Source of the DNA: Paeniglutamicibacter sp. Y32M11
GTDB taxonomy: Bacteria > Actinomycetota > Actinomycetes > Actinomycetales > Micrococcaceae
Direction: 5' to 3'
Assembly: GCF_019285735.1 (NCBI RefSeq)
Contig: NZ_CP079107.1
Coordinates: 372,001 to 436,000, forward strand
Length of the DNA stretch: 64,000 bases
Shown here piece by piece: positions 43,158-58,299 of the stretch (its first letter is position 1; each line of letters opens with the position of its first letter). The notes under the pieces were generated by a model, which ran no database searches, was not told the DNA's origin, and saw only the letters and a list, made by a program, of their open reading frames with translations. Position numbers and translations under genes: made by a program.

Positions 43158-44177
43158 ATGATCAAGAGGTTTTGGGTCGGCGGATATTCGCCGGACGGTG
43201 GCGGTACCAGTCAGGGCATCCGAACGATGGGTATCAATAATGGGGTGCTCACGGACCTCGGGCTGGCCCACGCCGCAGATTCCCCCTCGTGGCTGACCGT
43301 CCACCCGACACTGCCGGTGCTCTATGCGGCGCTCGAACATCGGGGTGAGGTGGCTGCCTATACGATCGTGGGCACCGACCGGCTTGCCCCTTTGGGGCGT
43401 CCGATTTCCGCCGGAGCGCTGGTATGTCACCTGGCCTTGGCCGGAAGTTATCTCATCGCCAGCTGCTACGGCGATGGGAAGATTTTGATCTACCCGCTAG
43501 CCACCGACGGTTCGCTGGGACTGCCCAGTCTGGCGCCGACCTCCAGAGATCCCTTTGCGGTCCCCGGTCATGAGGGGCGGGCATCGCATTCTCATCAAGC
43601 CACGGTGTTGCGTTCGGGAAGGATCATCACCACCGATCTTGGGCACGATTCACTGCGCCTGTGGGAACTGCTTGATGGCCAATTGCTGCTGCAACAAGTC
43701 ATCGTCTTGCACAAGGGCGACGGCCCGCGACATCTAGTGGAGCATCCCTCGGGGTTCATTTATGTCGCTACCGAACATGGCGCTGAAGTCATCACGCTGA
43801 GCCCCGACGCTTCGGGCGAATATCGTGAGGTGGCCCGAACCGGGCTTGGCGAAGAGATTGTGCCCGGCGAACATTTTCCTGCCGAGTTGTCCTTGGACAA
43901 GTACCGAGACCGTCTTTACATCGGTGTTCGTGGCGCCCAGAAGGTAGTGGTGCTTGGGCTTAAGGCGGGAATCCCGGTGCTCGTGGGCAGTTCGGCCTGT
44001 GAAGGGGAATGGCCGCGGCATCATCTGCAGGTGGGTGACTCAATGCTGGTGGCCAATCAGCTGTCCAATACGGTCGAGGCCTTCGAGTTGGATGCCGGGG
44101 ATGGGATTCCTTCTGTGCGTCTGGACTCCCTGGTGATGGAAAGTCCCACCTGCATCACCGCCCAAGTGGCATCGTAG
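43158..44177 (+). CDS. lactonase family protein (beta-propeller)
   Basis: 339 aa of the YkgB/Pgl-type seven-bladed propeller family. Seen: MIKRFWVGGYSPDGG at blade 1, SPSWLTVHPTLPVLYAALE, SHSHQATVLRSGRIITTDLGHDSL, GDGPRHLVEHPSGFIYVATE and GEWPRHHLQ. In the family these carry the metal-ligand and active-site residues. A 6-phosphogluconolactonase role is possible but unproven. Confidence 0.85.
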   Translation: MIKRFWVGGYSPDGGGTSQGIRTMGINNGVLTDLGLAHAADSPSWLTVHPTLPVLYAALEHRGEVAAYTIVGTDRLAPLGRPISAGALVCHLALAGSYLIASCYGDGKILIYPLATDGSLGLPSLAPTSRDPFAVPGHEGRASHSHQATVLRSGRIITTDLGHDSLRLWELLDGQLLLQQVIVLHKGDGPRHLVEHPSGFIYVATEHGAEVITLSPDASGEYREVARTGLGEEIVPGEHFPAELSLDKYRDRLYIGVRGAQKVVVLGLKAGIPVLVGSSACEGEWPRHHLQVGDSMLVANQLSNTVEAFELDAGDGIPSVRLDSLVMESPTCITAQVAS

Positions 44178-44314
44178 CAAGGCCGATTAAATACTTTGGT
44201 TTAAATAGGGCCTCGGGATCTAGGGCTCCAAAGATGGCGGACATCAATACTTTTGGGGCTACACGATATAGCACGTCAAGAACTCAAAGATTGAGTGATG
44301 GCAGAATTGAAGAC

Positions 44315-45547
44315 ATGAAAACGTGGACACAACTGGTTGATGACACCAAGCCGATGCCTGGTGGTCTCATAGGTCGAACAGTTCCCGTGGTGTTAGCACT
44401 GGTCATGTACGGGACCGACGTGCTGATGGACGGTACAACGTATGTTTCCAATCCAGGACTGCTTTTACTGGCCGCGCCGTTCATGTCGCTGGCTGCCTTG
44501 TCATTGGGTGTCTTGCCAAGCGTTTTCGTTTGGTACGTCAGTGCCATTCTGATTGGGCTGGCTGGCCTGCCCGGGATACTTGTCTTTGGAATGATCTTTC
44601 CATCGGTGATTGTCATGGCGGTGTGCTGCTGTCTTTTGCCGTGGAAATTTGCCCTTTTGTTCCCGATCTCATCCATAGCCTTGGCCTTAGGGCTGTTTCT
44701 CCTTTCGCCGGGAACACATGTGGTTCCCACACTGTTGTTGGTCCTCTTATGCAGCTTGGCAGCAGTGGCTGGTCTGAGCTTGAACATGTACCGGCGGCGA
44801 CACGAACGAAGTTCCGTGCAGATCCGAAACCTTGAGCAGGAACAGGCGCGCATACGTAGTGAAGAACGAACCCTTTTGGCACATGAGCTCCATGACATCG
44901 TCGCTCATGACGTGACTGTGATCGCGATGCAGGCCAGACGCGCCGAGTTTGTAGATGATCCGACCAAGACGGCAAGAATCCTGGAAGGGATCGGCGATGC
45001 TGCCCAGCAGACTCTTCAAGACCTGAGGAGTCTTGTGATGCTGCTGAAGCAGGAACTGGTGGTGCCCGACCCCGTCCCGTTACAAGGTCGGAACGACGAC
45101 GTAGAGATTCTCGGAACGGCTGCGATGTCGGGTGAAACTACGACTGCTGTGGGCTTCGTGAACGACCTGGACCGGGTTGTCGAGGCGTTGCGGAGGGCAG
45201 ATTTCGAGGTAGTCCTTCAGGTGGAAGGCGACGTGGCCAAGATCCCGGCCAGCCTTCGACAGGTCTTACGCCGTACCATTCGCGAACTTGGAACCAACGT
45301 GCTCAAGCATGCAAGCGTCAGTGGGACCGTCCTAGTGCATCTAGTTATCGGGGACGATACCGTGATGCTCAAGGCCGAAAACGAGGTTTCCTCCGGCAAC
45401 CCGATCATCTCGTCCCATACCGGGTTGGAAGCCATGATTGCTCGCTGTGAGATATTTGGCGGGTTTGTTGATTCTGGATTAACGGCCGAGCGTTGGTCGA
45501 CGTTCGTAACAATCCCGTTGGTGGGTTTACCGTTGCCGCGGCGTTAG
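44315..45547 (+). CDS. NarL-type sensor histidine kinase
   Basis: 410 aa from ATG at 44315 (longer start possible at 44234). Five or six membrane helices in the first ~160 residues, no large sensor. A coiled linker leads to the HisKA_3 H-box LLAHELHDIVAHDVTVIAMQ. The HATPase has N-box RELGTNVLKHA, but G1 and later motifs are weak (LKAENEVSSG; SHTGLEAMIARCEIFGG). Paired with the response regulator 98 nt downstream. The signal is likely membrane-derived (inference). Confidence 0.88.
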   Translation: MKTWTQLVDDTKPMPGGLIGRTVPVVLALVMYGTDVLMDGTTYVSNPGLLLLAAPFMSLAALSLGVLPSVFVWYVSAILIGLAGLPGILVFGMIFPSVIVMAVCCCLLPWKFALLFPISSIALALGLFLLSPGTHVVPTLLLVLLCSLAAVAGLSLNMYRRRHERSSVQIRNLEQEQARIRSEERTLLAHELHDIVAHDVTVIAMQARRAEFVDDPTKTARILEGIGDAAQQTLQDLRSLVMLLKQELVVPDPVPLQGRNDDVEILGTAAMSGETTTAVGFVNDLDRVVEALRRADFEVVLQVEGDVAKIPASLRQVLRRTIRELGTNVLKHASVSGTVLVHLVIGDDTVMLKAENEVSSGNPIISSHTGLEAMIARCEIFGGFVDSGLTAERWSTFVTIPLVGLPLPRR

Positions 45548-45645
45548 CTGGCGCCGTGGGAAGATGATGACTGCAGATGTTACTGCCGGCTGAGCTGGCA
45601 AGCCCAACGTGCGTGAATGCATTAGGTCCATATGGGAGGAAAACC

Positions 45646-46329
45646 GTGACGACAGTACTGCTGGTGGATGACGAGGCTTTGGCTAGGGAAATCCTGCGCG
45701 ACTATCTGTCTTCCGATCCGACTCTCCATATTGTGGGCGAGGCTTGCGACGGAAAAGCTGCGGTGGTTCAGGCTTCTGCCTTGCGTCCCGACGTGATACT
45801 CATGGATATGCAGATGCCCGTCATGGACGGAGTGGCCGCGGCCGCGCAGATTCATGACGCGCATCCCGAGATCGCTATCCTAGGACTCAGTACGTTTTCC
45901 ACGGACCGTTATGTCGTTGACCTGCTGCGGGCGGGCGCCTCCGGCTATCTGGTTAAGGACGCAAAGCCGAAAGAGATCACGACGGCCATCCGCACCGTCA
46001 TGGCGGGAGAATCGGTGCTTTCCCCCGAAGTCACCCGTCATGTGGTGCAGGGCCTTTCGACGTCCGTTCCGGCCGAGCTGATTCCCAATCCAACCCTCGT
46101 CGAAGTACTCACGGACAAGGAACTTGAAGTCATTCGGCTGCTTGGGAGGGGCATGAGCAACCGTGAAATGGCAGCCGAGCTATTTGTCACCGAATCCACC
46201 ATCAAGGCTCGATTCGTGAAGGTTATGAAGAAGCTCGGTGTCCGCGATCGGGTGCAAATCTTGGTGGCTGCGGTGGAGCACGGACTACTTGATACGAGAT
46301 TTGGGTCCCGCTCAGCCAAAGGTACCTGA
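45646..46329 (+). CDS. NarL/LuxR-family response regulator
   Basis: 227 aa from GTG at 45646, chosen for GGAGGAAAACC directly upstream; the open frame extends to 45577. Receiver: VLLVDDEALA, phospho-acceptor in DVILMDMQMPVMDG, and SGYLVKDAKP lysine. LuxR HTH: LTDKELEVIRLLGRGMSNRE, then LFVTESTIKARFVKVMKKLG. Forms a pair with the kinase. The island of IS relics begins about 55 nt after its stop. Confidence 0.93.
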   Translation: MTTVLLVDDEALAREILRDYLSSDPTLHIVGEACDGKAAVVQASALRPDVILMDMQMPVMDGVAAAAQIHDAHPEIAILGLSTFSTDRYVVDLLRAGASGYLVKDAKPKEITTAIRTVMAGESVLSPEVTRHVVQGLSTSVPAELIPNPTLVEVLTDKELEVIRLLGRGMSNREMAAELFVTESTIKARFVKVMKKLGVRDRVQILVAAVEHGLLDTRFGSRSAKGT

Positions 46330-46383: not shown

Positions 46384-47051
46384 CGGGATTTCATGGCCAA
46401 GGGCCGTACCCGTTCTACCAATGCCTTGAACGCCTTGGCTCGCCGCAACGACTTCGGTATTGATGCCCGCACGAAGCTCACCCCGGTGCAGATCGAAGAG
46501 ATCTCGCGGCGGCGTTAAAGTGAGGAATAACTGGCCCTTGGTATCGGCCGTGCCGAGGCGGTCCGTCTTGCCAAGCGCGTTCTGGACCTCGGAGAGCAGC
46601 TGAAGTCCAACGAGCCGAACTTGGACGAGCTGGTCAACGTCAGCGAGACAGCCCCGCTTTTCGAGGTGAAGGGTCTCCGGGCGGTGGACGCGGCAAAGTG
46701 TTTGGTAGCGTGGTCCCACGATGGACGGTCCATAGCGAGGCTGCCTTTGCGTGTCTGGCCGGGGTGAACCCCATCCCGGCACCGTCGGGATACACGGTGA
46801 GGCATCGACTGAATCAGGGAGTCGACAGGAGGCTCAACAGCGCCTTACACATGGCTGCGATCACCAGAATGACCTATGACTCAGAAACCTGCGACTATGT
46901 CGAGAAACGTCGGGCCGAGGGCAAGACGGACAAGGAAATCCGACGTTGCATCAAGCGCTATCTGGCTCGTCGCATATTCAGGATCCTGACCGCCTCGTCT
47001 CAGGCAAAAGGTTCAGGAAACGGCTTGACTAGATATAGAAGAGTCAGATAG
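46384..47051 (+). pseudogene. IS110-family transposase, C-terminal relic
   Basis: Reading frame 46384-46725 shows IS110-like GRTRSTNALNALARRNDFG, IGRAEAVRLAKRVLDLGEQL and LVAWSHDGR, interrupted by two stops at about 46516 and 46528. A frameshift near 46728 leads to SEAAFACLAGVNPIPAPSG, TVRHRLNQGVDRRLNSALHM and DKEIRRCIKRYLARRIFR, the Transposase_20 domain typical of IS110. The N-terminal catalytic domain is missing. Confidence 0.85.
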
Positions 47052-49577: not shown

Positions 49578-50470
49578 ATGCCATCTTCCTCCATCAACAT
49601 TCTCCATGGCCAACTGGAAGACATCCCTGAAGACCTCCACCGCTTCGTGACACCGGAATCTATCTTCTAGGCGCTCGCCTCGTTCCCCGACCACCACAAA
49701 CGCCGTGGCTTCCGGAACCAGCTGGGTTGGATCCTGGCAGTTGCGCTCTGCGCGGTGCTGGCTGGCTGGCGCAAGATCCGTCGTCGACATAGCAGACTGG
49801 TCCACCTCTGCCGCCTCCACCTCGTTGCGCAGCACCGAATTTGTGGCACCGCACGTCACCACTTTCCAACGCGCGCTCGCTTGCCTGAACGCCGAGGCCT
49901 TCGACCAAGCTCTGGGCACATTGATGCAAATGCAAGTCGACGCCCGTTTCATCGCCATCGACCGGAAAGAAATGCGCGGGGCCAAAATGGTGGCGGGGAC
50001 CGTATGCACCTCATGGCAGCACTGGACCACGACACCGTCAGCGGACAACTCGACGTCGGTATTAAAACAAACGAGATCACCCGACTTGACTCGCTTTTGG
50101 CGACATTCGGGGATCAGAAAGGCAAGACCATCACCATTGATGAACTGCATACGTTGGGACGCCATGCGCAGTTCCTTCACGCATGAGGTGCCCATTTTCT
50201 GATGACGGCGAAAGGGAATCAACCCAAGCAGCTCAGGCAACTCCACGCTTTGCCCTGGAAGGATGTTCCACTAGGGAACCAGCAGCAAGATACCGGGCAC
50301 GGGCGCAGGAGCATGCGCAGGATCAAGGTCGCTACCCTCACTGGCGGCATCAAGGTTCACCAGCCCCCCAACCCAGCTGCGCCGGACAGCGAAGTGGACT
50401 CAACTGGAGGGAGTTTCTACGTTGTCGAGTACGCACTATGTATGAGTACTTAGGTGCACAATTTGTCTGA
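49578..50470 (+). pseudogene. ISAs1-family transposase, frameshifted
   Basis: Segments in shifting frames match ISAs1: MPSSSINILHGQLEDIPEDL (then TAG at 49668), FRNQLGWILAVALCAVLAG, VVDIADWSTSAASTS and TTFQRALACLNAEAFDQALG, FIAIDRKEMRGAKMVAGT, MAALDHDTVSGQLDVGIKTN, ITIDELHTLGRHAQFLHA (TGA), then MTAKGNQPKQLRQLHALPWK. At least two stops and two frameshifts; the C-terminus ends abruptly. Confidence 0.85.
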
Positions 50471-50496
50471 TCGATGTGTACTTTAGTACACAATTT
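50446..50496. promoter_or_regulatory. tandem operator-like repeats upstream of the peptide gene
   Basis: Two 19-bp near-copies (GTACTTAGGTGCACAATTT at 50446 and GTACTTTAGTACACAATTT at 50478) lie 32 bp apart. The second includes a perfect inverted repeat, GTGTACT-TT-AGTACAC (50476-50491). They sit in an A/T-rich stretch about 120 nt before the precursor start. Confidence 0.5.
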
Positions 50497-50616: not shown

Positions 50617-50838
50617 ATGACCACCATTATGTACGAGGCCCCGACTGTATTCACTGCGAACGAGACCGCAGAGAACGGTGTGATACCGATCATTGCGGCC
50701 CTTGCGGGTGCCGTTTCTATTGCCACGGGCGCGAGCATCGGCCATGTTGTCTGGGTCTGCAGTCAATGCCCGGACAAGTGCCGGTCCTTTAGCCAGGCCG
50801 TGAACACCGTCAAGTCCTGGTGGGGCGCCGGCTGTTAA
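50617..50838 (+). CDS. putative bacteriocin precursor, four cysteines
   Basis: 73 aa from ATG at 50617, chosen for AAAAGGA seven nt upstream; a longer frame starts at 50545. Residues 1-21 (MTTIMYEAPTVFTANETAEN, then G) look like a leader. Residues 22-47 are a Gly/Ala-rich hydrophobic stretch. The C-terminal part has Cys48, Cys51, Cys55 and a final Cys73, with SWWGAG near the end, enough for two disulfides. Six same-strand genes for proteolysis, export and thiol oxidation follow after a hairpin. Codon use is more A/T-rich than in the flanks. I know no named homolog; the bacteriocin call rests on peptide shape and context. Confidence 0.7.
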   Translation: MTTIMYEAPTVFTANETAENGVIPIIAALAGAVSIATGASIGHVVWVCSQCPDKCRSFSQAVNTVKSWWGAGC

Positions 50839-50851
50839 GCTGCGCAACCCT

Positions 50852-50880
50852 GGGGTGGTCCACGAGAAGTGGGCCACCCC
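50852..50880 (+). terminator. hairpin between precursor and downstream genes
   Basis: 12-bp stem GGGGTGGTCCAC / GTGGGCCACCCC with one G-U pair and a five-base loop, followed by GAGCTTTTA. Likely a partial terminator or mRNA-stabilising end that favours precursor over the machinery genes. Confidence 0.65.
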
Positions 50881-50922
50881 GAGCTTTTACGTGTTTAAAG
50901 AAATATCATGAGGAGCGGTATT

Positions 50923-51105
50923 GTGGCAGATGTGACAAAAAAATCAAAGCAGTCAATGATTTGGTTACCGGCTTTAATTACAATTGTTGGAATTCTGGTA
51001 TCAATATTCCTTTATTCGTATCTTATTTGGTCGAACTGTGATTCGAACGGTCTAGGTGACTTTTTCACCGACGTGCGCCATTTTCACACTTCGCTAGGAT
51101 GCTGA
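50923..51105 (+). CDS. 60-aa single-TM peptide, immunity or second peptide
   Basis: Start GTG at 50923, chosen for AGGAG seven nt upstream; an ATG at 50908 is in frame. A basic N-terminus (ADVTKKSKQS) precedes one membrane helix (WLPALITIVGILVSIFLYSY). A short tail follows with Cys39 and a terminal Cys60. The next gene starts on the base after its stop. Small one-TM proteins next to precursors are often immunity proteins, but the two cysteines also allow a DsbA substrate. No family recognised. Confidence 0.6.
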   Translation: MADVTKKSKQSMIWLPALITIVGILVSIFLYSYLIWSNCDSNGLGDFFTDVRHFHTSLGC

Positions 51106-52041
51106 ATGGAGATCGCACACACTGGCTATGACGTCCGCGATCGCGTCAGTCGAAGTGAAGTGTTTACGTCGCTGAGTTCATTCCAAGGAAATCGTGTTGG
51201 CATGGAGCTCATGGAGCTCATACCAGACCAAGGAACCGTCGCTATCGGGCATCTTGTTGGTTCCTTGAATGAACGCTACGACGTCCCAAGTGATGCGTTG
51301 GAGTTAGATGTATGTAGATTCCTCCATGAGGCCCAGACGTCTGGTTACATAAATTTTTATTCCACATGGGCCAGGAATGCGAGTATGATGATGGTGCGCC
51401 GAGTGAAAGATTCGCAATACCTAACATTTCATAATCGCAATATAAAATTGACTTTGTGCCGACGAATATCTCTTAGTCCGACCTATTTTAACACTGCTAT
51501 GTTGGTAGCTAGATCGATGATGATTAATGGTCTCAGTATTTCCGTATTGCTCGGAGGCTTATTGCTCGGTCTATTCACGTCCGCTGAGATGCAGATTACC
51601 TATTTGACCTTGGTCAGCTTTTGCATCGGGATCATCTCGTCAACAGCCGTATTCGTTGCAGCCGGAGTAGTGCATGAGGCTGCACACTTGGGAGCTGCAC
51701 GCGGATGCAGTTCAACGCCGCAGTTTCTCTACCGCGAAGGTACATCTGTGGTACTTAATCGCCTGCGGACCTCGCCCGGTCAAGAGATCTGGATTGCCAC
51801 AATAGGTCCCGTCGCTGGTGCAATGGTTGCGTGGGGGCTGGCAGCCTTATGGATTGCGATGTTGCCACAAGCGGCCCCCAATCTTACTGAAACAGCGATT
51901 CAAAGTGCTCTAATTCTAGGATTGCCACTACTTCCTATTTTAACAAACATTGCCACACTTATTCCACCGTCACAGGACGGAAGAAACGTCGGTGCCGCGA
52001 TAAAGGAAATGGTCATGTCCAGAAAGGTGTCCCGTGCTTAA
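51106..52041 (+). CDS. membrane M50-type metalloprotease with N-terminal PqqD/RRE-like domain
   Basis: 311 aa. Residues ~30-85 (GTVAIGHLVGSLNERYDVPS, then VCRFLHEAQTSGYI) look like a PqqD-type RiPP recognition element. After two membrane helices, VVHEAAHLGAARG (HEAAH at 190-194) gives a zinc HExxH motif, and NIATLIPPSQDGRN near residue 290 fits the second M50 motif (Asp-Gly). This is site-2 protease architecture. I infer that the RRE-like part captures the leader peptide and the protease removes it. TAGGA lies upstream of the ATG. The end overlaps the ABC ATPase start by 8 nt. Confidence 0.75.
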   Translation: MEIAHTGYDVRDRVSRSEVFTSLSSFQGNRVGMELMELIPDQGTVAIGHLVGSLNERYDVPSDALELDVCRFLHEAQTSGYINFYSTWARNASMMMVRRVKDSQYLTFHNRNIKLTLCRRISLSPTYFNTAMLVARSMMINGLSISVLLGGLLLGLFTSAEMQITYLTLVSFCIGIISSTAVFVAAGVVHEAAHLGAARGCSSTPQFLYREGTSVVLNRLRTSPGQEIWIATIGPVAGAMVAWGLAALWIAMLPQAAPNLTETAIQSALILGLPLLPILTNIATLIPPSQDGRNVGAAIKEMVMSRKVSRA

Positions 52042-52765
52042 CATTTGCGACCTGCAAGCAACGGCCGGGGACTTTGTCCTCGGCCCAGTGACTCATGATT
52101 TTCGCCGAGGTATAACTTCTATAATCGGGCCCAACGGATCAGGGAAAACCACATTGTTCACATCTCTAGTGGGCGATGGGCGGGTGGATTCGGGCACTGT
52201 CATGTGGAACGGTTCTGCACTCGGACATAGGGACTTCGGAGCTTGGCATGGAGTGTCCTACATTCCTGACTCGAGTCATACCCTCTTCGACGAAATGACT
52301 TCAGAGGAGACATGGGCTATGGCCGCAAGAGTCCAAGAATTGCACCGAGCGACCGATACCATCATTTTGCTGGAAGAGGCCTTCAGCCTTGCTGAAAAGC
52401 TTGGGTTCTCCGAATTTGACAAGCGAACTAAGAACTTGAGCCTCGGGAACCGCAAGAAATCTCGCCTCATCTGTGGCTTAATGAACCGCCCAAGCCTCCT
52501 CTTGGTCGACGAACCGCAGAACGGCCTTGACTTCTTGACTAGCATCGCGCTCCGAGCCCAGTTGCAGGAGCTAGTCCGTGACGAAGGCTCCACTGTGGTG
52601 ATGTCTAATCACGATCTTGACTCTGTGGCACGTAGTTCGGACGAGATTCTTGCTCTCCGCGGAGGCCGCCTCGTCGAAGCCATCCGCCCTGCCGAATCTG
52701 GCCTGGAGAGTGCTGCGACGCGGATGGTTCAGATCTTCACGGAATTCACTGATGAAGCTGGGTAG
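52034..52765 (+). CDS. ABC transporter ATP-binding protein
   Basis: 243 aa from GTG at 52034 (AGAAAGG upstream), overlapping the protease gene. Walker A GPNGSGKTTL at 32-41, a signature-like LSLGNRKKSRLICG, Walker B LLLVDEPQNGLD, and the switch SNHDLDSVARSS. All catalytic residues are present. It would power export or immunity with the large membrane protein encoded next, whose gene overlaps it by 14 nt. Confidence 0.92.
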   Translation: MLNICDLQATAGDFVLGPVTHDFRRGITSIIGPNGSGKTTLFTSLVGDGRVDSGTVMWNGSALGHRDFGAWHGVSYIPDSSHTLFDEMTSEETWAMAARVQELHRATDTIILLEEAFSLAEKLGFSEFDKRTKNLSLGNRKKSRLICGLMNRPSLLLVDEPQNGLDFLTSIALRAQLQELVRDEGSTVVMSNHDLDSVARSSDEILALRGGRLVEAIRPAESGLESAATRMVQIFTEFTDEAG

Positions 52766-54245
52766 TCCTCTGAAGGTAGACGCTTATGTGACTCGGGCCG
52801 TCCTGGCCCAGAGCGTCCGGAGTGCAGAGTCGAAACTTCTGGGGCGATTGGCCTCCTCCCGTATCTTAAAGGTCTTGATTGGTCTTACGCTGCTCGCCTT
52901 GTATCTACTCCTACTTAACCGTTCTTGGAATCTAGGGCGTGAGCTGGACGCCGTGGGGCTTGGCTATCCGCTGCTATCCCTAGGGCTCTTCGGAATAGGG
53001 TATGCATCTTCGCTCTTTTTCATCGTGCAGCTATGCACTTCCACTCGGGCTATTCTCACCCGCAGCGCGGCACTCATGCCCTTCCCGATGAGTCACCGTG
53101 CAAGGAGAATCACCGCCATCGTGTCCGTCCTGTCCCCAGCAGTGACTGTCCTAGCATCTGGGGCCTTTCTTGTGCTCGCCTACGCTAGTGCTCTAGATCT
53201 CAAGGACCCTCGCGTAGGGGCGGCGTTCCTGGCAGGGGTAGTTAACGCCCTCCTACCAGCAACCTTAGTGGGGGGAGTGCTTACATGGGTCCAAGGACGT
53301 GGTAGATTCTGGCTGTCGCCGTGGGTCACCGGTGCTCTCATGATTGCAAGCGCCCCCATAGCTACATGGACCATTGCGCAGTTTGTAGAACGTTCGGACG
53401 TGCCGGCACTGCTGCAGGTAGTGCTGCCCGGCTCTATCCTTGAGCGCTCCATTGGCTTCACGACTACTGAGCTTTTGGTAACCCTTGGGCTCGGTGCGAC
53501 GCTCACGATCCTGATCGCGTTGATCGTCTCGCAGGTTGTGATCAAGGCAGACCAACGGAAGCCACCGTTAATGGCCTCCGCGCATCCGGATATGAACCCG
53601 CGCGAACGCATCTCAGGCCTTGCTGCAAAACCATTCAACGCCTACGTATCCACGCTCTCCGCCCGGAACGTGTCTCCCTGGCTGGAGACAATGCTATATG
53701 CAGGATTCGCACTCCTACTTACGCTGGCTGCGGTACGGTTCGGTCATACAGGCCGTATCGATGAAGCACGGATCCTCTTTTTCAGTGCTGGGTGGGCTAG
53801 CTCTCTCGCCGCTATGGGAATCTTCAGTTCCCTGGACCCATACGCTGAATTCCGTAGGTTTGGCGTTGCAAAGCGTGAATGGCTAGGTCTAGCTCTGGGA
53901 ATCCATACGAAATTGTCGGCTCTTGCCTTAACGCCAGCGGGTGCTTATGCGGCGGTTGCGGGTGCCCGTGGCTCATGGATCGGCTGGGAGAACCTTCTTA
54001 TGGGTGCGCTCCTCGGGGGAGCGGTGGTTTCAGTGGTTGGGTACCTACTACGCCGGTCTATGCTGACGGCACCGGGCCGGACGGCTGGAAGCATTGTTGG
54101 CGTGGGTGCGGCGTTTGGCGCGATCAGCCTTCGCCTTCATGCCCCTAAGGACATGGCGGCGTTAGTCGTCTCGATATTTTTAGTTCTACTTGCTGTGGTT
54201 GCGGTATTCATTTTTGAGGCTCGGAGGAAAAATGGCAATTCATAA
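52752..54245 (+). CDS. ABC transporter membrane protein
   Basis: 497 aa from ATG at 52752. About twelve hydrophobic segments, with a polar loop around residues 270-310. It resembles large ABC-2-type permeases found next to stand-alone ATPases in bacteriocin clusters, but no diagnostic motif was found. The strong gene overlaps at both ends imply coupled translation with the ATPase and the thiol-disulfide protein. Confidence 0.8.
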   Translation: MKLGSPLKVDAYVTRAVLAQSVRSAESKLLGRLASSRILKVLIGLTLLALYLLLLNRSWNLGRELDAVGLGYPLLSLGLFGIGYASSLFFIVQLCTSTRAILTRSAALMPFPMSHRARRITAIVSVLSPAVTVLASGAFLVLAYASALDLKDPRVGAAFLAGVVNALLPATLVGGVLTWVQGRGRFWLSPWVTGALMIASAPIATWTIAQFVERSDVPALLQVVLPGSILERSIGFTTTELLVTLGLGATLTILIALIVSQVVIKADQRKPPLMASAHPDMNPRERISGLAAKPFNAYVSTLSARNVSPWLETMLYAGFALLLTLAAVRFGHTGRIDEARILFFSAGWASSLAAMGIFSSLDPYAEFRRFGVAKREWLGLALGIHTKLSALALTPAGAYAAVAGARGSWIGWENLLMGALLGGAVVSVVGYLLRRSMLTAPGRTAGSIVGVGAAFGAISLRLHAPKDMAALVVSIFLVLLAVVAVFIFEARRKNGNS

Positions 54246-54930
54246 TAAGGACATCAATCGGGCTGGTAAATACGTTAGCAGAACGCTATCTTGGTTCATT
54301 GCAATAATGGCAGTGTTAATCGCCGTCCTTGTCATCTGGCTTGCCGTGCAGGCCAACAGCTCGACTAGGGCAAAGGGTGAGGCATCCCCGCACCATATGC
54401 CGGCTTCAGGGACAATGCCGGTGGGGTACGGGCCAAGAGGAGTGTCAGCGGGCACCTACTCCCCTAATGCGCGTGAGGTGGCCGTAATGGTCGACCCCTC
54501 CTGTCCGTTCTGTCAGGAGTTCATGAAATCCGACATTGACGAACTTAGGAAGGTTGCAGACAACCCGTCTATGAATCTTTACCTCATCCCGGTCAATATT
54601 TTTCCTGCTTCAGAAGTCAATCCAATCGCGCTGGAGCTGCTCCATGCCGGGATCGCCAATGGGAACATGGATCCCCTGATGGCTTACGGAATGATTTCGG
54701 AGGCCGCCAGAGTGGCAGCCGGCAACAAAGATAAGTTTCGGACTGAAATTGAAACCACGCCTCTGGCAAAATACTGGCCAACCGAGTGTTGCTCTGCATC
54801 CCTCGTCGAGTGGACTAAACACCATACACAGCAAAATCGATCTGGCATTGGCAAGGTTCCTTCTGGGGTGATCGACGGCGTACAAGTAGATATCGATACG
54901 CTCCGGAGGGAAGGGCTGGGAACCGATTAG
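54232..54930 (+). CDS. membrane-anchored DsbA/thioredoxin-like protein
   Basis: 232 aa from ATG at 54232, with GGAGGAAAA directly upstream. One N-terminal signal-anchor helix (residues ~20-41) places the rest outside. VMVDPSCPFCQEF holds the active-site CPFC (91-94), and a KVPSGVIDG loop near residue 208 gives the cis-proline region of the DsbA fold. There is also an adjacent Cys pair (TECCSAS). It probably forms or shuffles disulfides in the secreted four-Cys peptide, as BdbA does in sublancin-type clusters; this is inference. Confidence 0.85.
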   Translation: MAIHNKDINRAGKYVSRTLSWFIAIMAVLIAVLVIWLAVQANSSTRAKGEASPHHMPASGTMPVGYGPRGVSAGTYSPNAREVAVMVDPSCPFCQEFMKSDIDELRKVADNPSMNLYLIPVNIFPASEVNPIALELLHAGIANGNMDPLMAYGMISEAARVAAGNKDKFRTEIETTPLAKYWPTECCSASLVEWTKHHTQQNRSGIGKVPSGVIDGVQVDIDTLRREGLGTD

Positions 54931-58222: not shown

Positions 58223-58299
58223 TGGTGCGCCCAAAGGGATTCGAACCCCTGACCTTCTGTTCCGTAGACAGATGCTCTATCCAGCTGAGCTATGGGCGC
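58223..58299 (-). tRNA. tRNA-Arg (anticodon ACG)
   Basis: 77 nt with encoded CCA. The acceptor GCGCCCA/TGGGCGC, D-arm AGCTCAGCTGGATAGAGC, anticodon loop CTACGGA and T-arm AGGGGTTCGAATCCCTT are all present. A34 would be converted to inosine by TadA, which is also encoded here. Confidence 0.97.

Follow-up and report, generated by a model that had tools for sequence, protein, structure and literature searches.

A rare six-gene operon of Paeniglutamicibacter that probably encodes a small exported peptide matured in the membrane

A stretch of 64,000 nucleotides from Paeniglutamicibacter sp. Y32M11 (contig NZ_CP079107.1, positions 372,001–436,000), referred to here as the window, contains a six-gene operon at 50617–54930 on the + strand. 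In order, the genes encode a precursor peptide of 73 aa (50617–50838); a companion peptide of 60 aa with a GTG start and a single transmembrane (TM) segment (50923–51105); a fusion of a PqqD-like recognition element (RRE) of ribosomally synthesized and post-translationally modified peptides (RiPPs) with an M50 site-2-protease-like domain (51106–52041); an ATP-binding cassette (ABC) transporter ATPase (52034–52765); a multi-TM permease of 497 aa (52752–54245); and a membrane-anchored DsbA-like thiol-disulfide oxidoreductase (54232–54930). The reading frames, and the overlaps that link the last four genes (protease/ATPase 8 bases, ATPase/permease 14 and permease/DsbA-like 14), confirm the operon as drawn in a first-pass annotation of the window. 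The TM-peptide gene abuts the protease gene and is separated from the precursor gene by 84 bases. Judged from its sequence and by analogy with described systems, the operon probably makes a small exported RiPP that is matured in the membrane of the producer.

The precursor has a leader with the motif YEAPTV, a hydrophobic stretch (about residues 21–47 by eye; the best 19-residue window is 18–36) and then the tail CSQCPDKC...WWGAGC, with cysteines at positions 48, 51, 55 and 73. Homologues are present in three other clusters, one in Nesterenkonia haasae Hz 6-5 (G596) and one each in G639 and its congener G581, which belong to another genus of the same family. The four precursors are 71–77 aa long, the N. 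haasae copy having 71, and each has four cysteines and a helix-length hydrophobic segment that ends at a CxxC. By a simple hydropathy count, the 19-residue means are 1.62 (window), 2.47, 2.23 and 2.24, where 1.5 is the threshold for a TM segment. The first and last cysteines are 25, 27, 23 and 23 residues apart, and Gly-Cys forms the C-terminal end in three of the four, but is one residue from the end in N. haasae (Cys-Ala). By eye, Trp is found at one end of the helix only, and the end differs among the four.

The leader motif is YEAPTV in the window and YEAPTL in N. haasae. Both satisfy the pattern [Y/W]xxPx[L/V/I/F/A], which lasso peptide RREs are said to bind (PMC13381572, 2026). Actinobacterial lasso leaders are described as having YxxPxL in common (PMC6784204), the text on a Bacillota RiPP gives YxxP as essential for RRE binding (PMC13381572), and daptide leaders are reported to share ELExMEAP (PMC10036551). 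The leader-like N-terminus and four cysteines noted in the first pass are thus upheld, the cysteines being conserved in 4/4 precursors and a YxxP-type motif being present in two. Homologues of the peptide were found in the same genetic context, and no known family scored above cut-off for it: the precursor has no match above cut-off in Pfam or in NCBIfam.

The protease matches PqqD at residues 29–82 (E 1.4e-5, 25.7 bits vs a Pfam cut-off of 23.4). PqqD matches are seen in all four proteases, over the cut-off in two (25.7 and 32.9 bits) and under it in two (17.4 and 19.7). Peptidase_M50 is under cut-off in all four (E 1.3 for the window; 4.1e-4, 2.4e-5 and 3.3e-3 for the others). Residues H190, E191 and H194 (HEAAH at residue 190 in the window) and D291-G292 are invariant across the four proteins and form an HExxH motif and a distal Asp-Gly. 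Profile searches of the PDB matched the M50 part to mjS2P (3b4r, E 0.038) and RseP (0.44), and the N-terminal part to two PqqD chaperones (E 0.18 and 0.21); these matches are weak but fall in the right places. The PqqD score, the two motifs and the mjS2P match agree with the RRE/M50 protease proposed at the outset. DUF3267 (PF11667) is not among the matches listed for any of the four proteases up to E 10, a negative that is limited by the HMMER filters, which discard most matches above about 0.1. By sequence, then, an RRE and a precursor are present in four of four clusters and YxxP in two of four, as expected of a RiPP with an RRE.

The DsbA-like protein has CPFC at residue 91. Among PDB profiles, MdbA matches it best (E 0.011), Thioredoxin and DsbA Pfam matches are below cut-off, and the CxxC is found in both DsbA-like proteins, as CPFC in the window and CPHC in N. 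haasae; a thiol-disulfide protein, as first annotated, is consistent with these data. The ATPase matches ABC_tran of Pfam (E 1.2e-18). The permease belongs to no Pfam family and has nine hydrophobic segments in the window copy and 11 in two relatives. Like the precursor, the TM peptide, the permease and the DsbA-like protein have no Pfam match above cut-off.

The search for the same gene set in other genomes, suggested in the first-pass annotation, found the full set in one species and a shorter form in two genomes of another genus. N. haasae, assigned by NCBI to the Micrococcaceae, the family of the window, has the same six genes in identical order: the precursor, a 66-aa TM peptide, the RRE-M50 protein, the ATPase, the permease and the CPHC protein. 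With tblastn, the database size being fixed at 9 million letters, the window proteins match the N. haasae locus at 2.7e-10 (peptide), 1.6e-13 (TM peptide), 3.4e-43 (ABC), 4.4e-7 (permease) and 1.2e-8 (DsbA-like); the protease had no match at E 1 in this test, and a genome search gave 3.7e-13. The shorter clusters of G639 and G581 consist of the precursor, a full-length RRE-protease, the ATPase and the permease. Matches there are 9.5e-7 and 1.3e-6 for the peptide (residues 28–73), about 1.6e-34 for the ABC protein, and 0.001 and 0.007 for the protease, and at E 1 there is no tblastn match for the TM peptide, permease or DsbA-like protein. The permease of these clusters was assigned by place, size and hydrophobicity because it gave no match; in a three-row alignment, one of them is 23% identical to the window permease.

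Downstream of the permease gene, G639 and G581 have genes for a small TM protein and then for an ICMT-like methyltransferase; next comes a gene that by eye is kbl-like. The ICMT Pfam match is 3e-13 in G581 and 4.7e-13 in G639 (small TM protein and ICMT-family gene at L077:8624–9473 and L042:9326–10178 in the two clusters). The precursors of both clusters end in Cys, which might conceivably be methyl-esterified at the C terminus. The proposal that no dedicated modifying enzyme is involved holds for the window operon, the DsbA-like protein aside, but the two relatives have the ICMT-like gene downstream.

The gene set is rare, being found in four of 313 family genomes and one of 374 class genomes. 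All genome sets are samples, and the draws overlap. The window protease as query found only itself among 59 relatives, nothing at E 0.001 in 14 further genomes of its genus, and only itself at full length among 396 genomes of the phylum, 66 more of which matched partially at E up to 0.1. Among 395 family genomes, N. haasae matched at 3.7e-13 (24% identity, residues 28–295), other matches were weaker and partial, and 26 genomes, the query's own included, matched at E 0.01 or better. Full-length proteases are present in two of 15 genomes of the G639/G581 genus, the other 13 having only partial M50 matches, and in one of 30 Nesterenkonia genomes (N. haasae), nine of the 30 having any match. A profile built from the four proteases recovered these four and no fifth full-length protein in the 313 family genomes; six genomes matched at 1e-8, and the two beyond the four were partial, near 1e-9. 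Among the 374 class genomes, the same profile matched the window and, over the M50 part or little more, 33 others. Exact 8-residue patterns of the protease had no match in genome contigs. Plasmids gave no match for the peptide, the permease, the DsbA-like protein or the proteases of the window, N. haasae, G639 and L041 (E limits 1 to 0.001), and viral contigs none by pattern. A weak match in L043 is antisense to a long open reading frame (ORF) and was judged by eye to be a chance match.

M50 proteases and Dsb proteins also have housekeeping roles, and the 33 class-wide matches limited to the M50 part or little more would suit an ordinary unit of membrane stress response or quality control, whose small ORF would not be a secreted product. 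We consider this highly improbable. Housekeeping M50 proteases are not known to have an RRE, the protease is unmatched at E 0.001 in 14 further genomes of the genus, and a syntenic congener lacks the segment that holds the operon.

One further locus, L041:545–4043, on a 4.2-kb contig of G501 (another genus of the family), has an ORF, an ABC ATPase, a 96-aa small membrane protein, a 491-aa permease and an M50-like protein. The ORF before the ABC gene has a hydrophobic stretch followed by Cys 61 and Cys 85 (a third is at 10 in the longest reading). The M50-like protein has a match to the family profile that spans 64 columns (82.5%, E 9.9e-6). Although the layout is like that of the TMcins discussed below, the locus was excluded from the family: the permease has no match to those of the family, and no RRE was found.

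The 60-aa TM companion (WSNCDSNGLGDFFTDVRHFHTSLGC) has a short Lys-rich N-terminus, one TM segment and a tail with C39 and C60. It is 45% identical to the 66-aa peptide of N. haasae, and of the 27 identical columns 20 fall within residues 34–60. Apart from its own copy, a profile of the peptide picked up seven weak matches (E 0.0017–0.0057) in 396 genomes of the order; N. haasae is not among them and therefore presumably was outside that draw. In a pattern search of genome contigs, N. haasae was the only confirmed relative among 70 matching stretches. The G639 and G581 clusters have no space for the gene and no tblastn match to it. The companion and the DsbA-like gene co-occur in the window and in N. 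haasae, and neither was found in G639 or G581.

Both small peptides have a TM stretch, then cysteines, and Gly-Cys near the end, and the tail is the best conserved part of the companion. This raises the question of whether the 73-aa precursor and the 60-aa peptide are two exported toxin subunits, both substrates of the site-2 protease and both with disulfide loops; the ORF before the ABC gene in L041 is architecturally similar. We think a two-peptide system unlikely. The companion might be a paralogue of the precursor core, which by eye is suggestive, but hhalign gave a probability of 1.8% (E 0.028) and column shuffles gave p 0.13 and 0.19, which leaves homology unsupported. In addition, the companion has no leader motif, is missing from two of four clusters, and would suit an escort or immunity role equally well.

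The system with which the operon can be compared step by step is that of the TMcins (TmcA-TmcP-TmcBC-TmcE-TmcD). TMcin mutants are reported to show that the precursor, once inserted in the membrane, has its leader cut off by a site-2 protease, that its disulfide is formed by a DsbA-like protein, and that the product leaves through an ABC transporter whose permease has 12 helices; cleavage requires a two-helix protein (PMC13252029, 2026 preprint). The class is described from both Actinomycetota and Bacillota, and its DsbA gene is found mainly in clusters of staphylococci (PMC12328743, 2025). By architecture only, the present family has in common with it a leader, a TM helix and a cysteine at or near the C-terminal end (4/4 precursors), a site-2-type protease, an ABC ATPase with a large single-chain permease, and a DsbA-like gene in some clusters only. 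The cysteine spacing of 25 is the same in mature TMcin-G1905 (C25–C50) and in the window (C48–C73). There are also differences. TmcP is a DUF3267 protein for which the text describes no RRE, whereas the window protease has an RRE and no DUF3267 match. The family has four cysteines rather than two, and its first-to-last spacing varies. In place of the two-helix TmcE, there is a one-helix, Cys-bearing companion in two of four clusters, which by analogy is a candidate for the role of the escort. Thus the window operon has, by analogy, a counterpart for every TMcin step except the two-helix escort.

Daptides (mpa; PMC10036551) are likewise actinomycetotal peptides and, in domains and motifs, resemble the family in the fusion of an RRE to a site-2 protease, in the leader EAP (ELExMEAP there, YEAP in 2/4 here), and in an aliphatic stretch and an ABC transporter. 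They differ in their aminotransferase, alcohol dehydrogenase, S-adenosylmethionine (SAM) methyltransferase and second RRE gene as described, none of which was recognized in the window operon, and in their C-terminal Thr, where all four precursors here have Cys or Cys-Ala and four cysteines. A search confined to the six genes recognized no Dmp-forming enzymes. The site-2 protease, DsbA-like protein and ABC transporter of TMcins (PMC12328743, PMC13252029) and the RRE–site-2-protease fusion of daptides (PMC10036551) were thus already described, in the texts available, and the 'new class' of the first-pass annotation does not stand as worded.

Other systems share less with the operon. Lasso peptides have the YxxP-type leader motif and a PqqD-type RRE (PMC6784204, PMC13381572). 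Neither a lasso cyclase nor a lasso leader peptidase was recognized among the six genes of the window operon. The lasso cyclase is asparagine-synthetase-like. In epipeptides (EpeX/EpeP) an M50 intramembrane protease is described as maturing a small antimicrobial peptide (PMC10885120). The window operon has no radical SAM epimerase gene. Epipeptides need such an enzyme. Actifensin is a disulfide-bonded actinobacterial bacteriocin with a leader and ABC genes, but its precursor is different, the protease encoded at its locus is subtilisin-like, and 'M50' is absent from the text (PMC6989792). The sublancin-type cluster, first named as the parallel, was rejected as the closest system since its protease and export logic differ.

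The biochemical steps that we infer, with the cleavage site, the disulfide pairing and the activity, may be put as follows. The 73-aa precursor would insert in the membrane by its hydrophobic segment, the N-terminus bearing the YxxP-type leader motif. The PqqD-like RRE of the 51106–52041 protein would bind this motif, and the fused site-2-protease core would remove the leader beside or within the membrane. A product of about 45–55 residues, with one helix and a Cys-rich tail, might result. The DsbA-like protein could oxidize the four cysteines to two disulfides, with the tail folded back on the helix; C48–C73 is a plausible outer pair. The ABC ATPase and the large permease would extract and then export the product, and the TM companion could be an escort, an immunity protein or a second subunit.

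Several observations weigh against this scheme. Motifs and matches below threshold are the basis of the DsbA and M50 assignments, the hydrophobic segment of the window precursor is barely over the TM threshold (1.62 vs 1.5), and two AlphaFold models are poor (mean pLDDT 48.5 and 46.0, from thin alignments). In G639 and G581, the third cysteine is placed differently from that in the other subgroup, the leaders carry APRL, without Tyr and so without YxxP, the permeases resemble that of the window in place, size and hydrophobicity only, and no DsbA-like gene or TM companion was found.

The genomic setting points to a variable segment. The window and the congener G003 are collinear over 13.3–44.17 kb and from 58.19 kb onward; the intervening 14 kb (44.17–58.19 kb), with the operon inside, correspond to about 2 kb in G003. 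The operon therefore lies in an acquired or variable segment, as judged from one congener. A tRNA-Arg gene (58223–58299) stands at the right edge; it was considered as an attachment site and rejected, as no 13-base repeat of it is found elsewhere in the window. At E 0.01, six of ten neighbouring ORFs are without a Pfam match, which is not proof of decay, and one of the ten (43158–44174) is outside the segment. An IS110-family transposase fragment is found at 46698–47048 (Transposase_20, 8.7e-10). The earlier description of the cluster as the only intact one within a decayed island agrees with the absence of the segment from G003 and with the six Pfam-less ORFs, but not with the long HisKA_3 and Response_reg/GerE frames inside it.

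These frames (44234–46329, at the segment's left end) consist of a HisKA_3 frame without an ATPase-domain match and a LuxR-type Response_reg/GerE frame, the latter with only 38–46% identical matches, in three congeners. The pair is a possible regulator of the operon. The N. haasae cluster is flanked, on the opposite strand, by PadR-type (5.8e-21, L040:4583–5155) and LuxR-type (1.8e-18, L040:9641–10138) regulator genes. Upstream of the window operon are two 19-base direct repeats, GTACTTnRGTnCACAATTT, 32 bases apart (50446–50464 and 50478–50496, no strand assigned), the second inside a palindrome. Even when two mismatches are allowed, the pattern, derived from the two sites themselves, matches nowhere else in the genome (4.17 Mb), against one match for its reversed control. 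From sequence, the repeats are an operator candidate. A strong RNA hairpin of 13–14 pairs is predicted by RNA folding 3′ of the precursor gene (50850–50883, + strand); the fold of 50836–50900 has −31 kcal/mol (z −4.34), and none of 200 shuffles was equally low. It is absent from the output of a simple terminator scan. The hairpin is a candidate partial terminator or mRNA stabilizer, and an excess of precursor transcript could result.

Site-2 proteases also release short hydrophobic pheromones. Perhaps, then, the peptide is a pheromone-like signal and not a weapon, with the ABC pair as its exporter or sensor. Site-2-type processing with an ABC transporter is compatible with signalling, as are the operator-like repeats, the kinase/LuxR-type pair about 4 kb upstream, and the LuxR-type gene (GerE 1.8e-18) just downstream in N. 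haasae. However, a Cys-rich tail and a DsbA-like gene are unusual among pheromones, and the rare, patchy distribution and the variable segment suit bacteriocins better. No regulator common to all clusters was noticed, though no systematic search was made. We therefore doubt a signalling role. The product of the preferred RiPP pathway would most likely act on the membranes of competing bacteria.

The family is filed as neither TMcin nor daptide, because one defining feature of each was looked for and not found. It appears to work like a TMcin with a daptide-like protease; the comparison is by architecture, and common descent is conceivable. The combination of RRE-M50, ABC pair and TM precursor was not recognized in any description within the open-access papers that were searched, and 'M50' is absent from the main text of RRE-Finder (PMC7470986) and of a 2025 RRE survey (PMC12710340). 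We put forward tentatively, as possible rather than probable, that this is a distinct RRE-guided, membrane-embedded RiPP family with two disulfides, in which an RRE-protease of the daptide type is combined with the disulfide and export machinery of TMcins. One branch would have the DsbA-like protein and the Cys-bearing TM companion; in the other, the ICMT-like enzyme may methylate the C-terminal Cys, analogous to the removal of the C-terminal charge in daptides.

The literature found on membrane-embedded RiPP maturation dates from 2025–2026 only and concerns, in the texts available, TMcins with a DUF3267 protease. The RRE-M50 protein, the ABC pair and a TM precursor ending in GC provide a signature that can be searched for. 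If the interpretation is correct, the same maturation logic with a fused RRE and four cysteines would mean that this peptide-making route has more than one form, and the fusion would offer a single polypeptide with which to ask how a substrate inserted in the membrane is passed from an RRE to an intramembrane protease.

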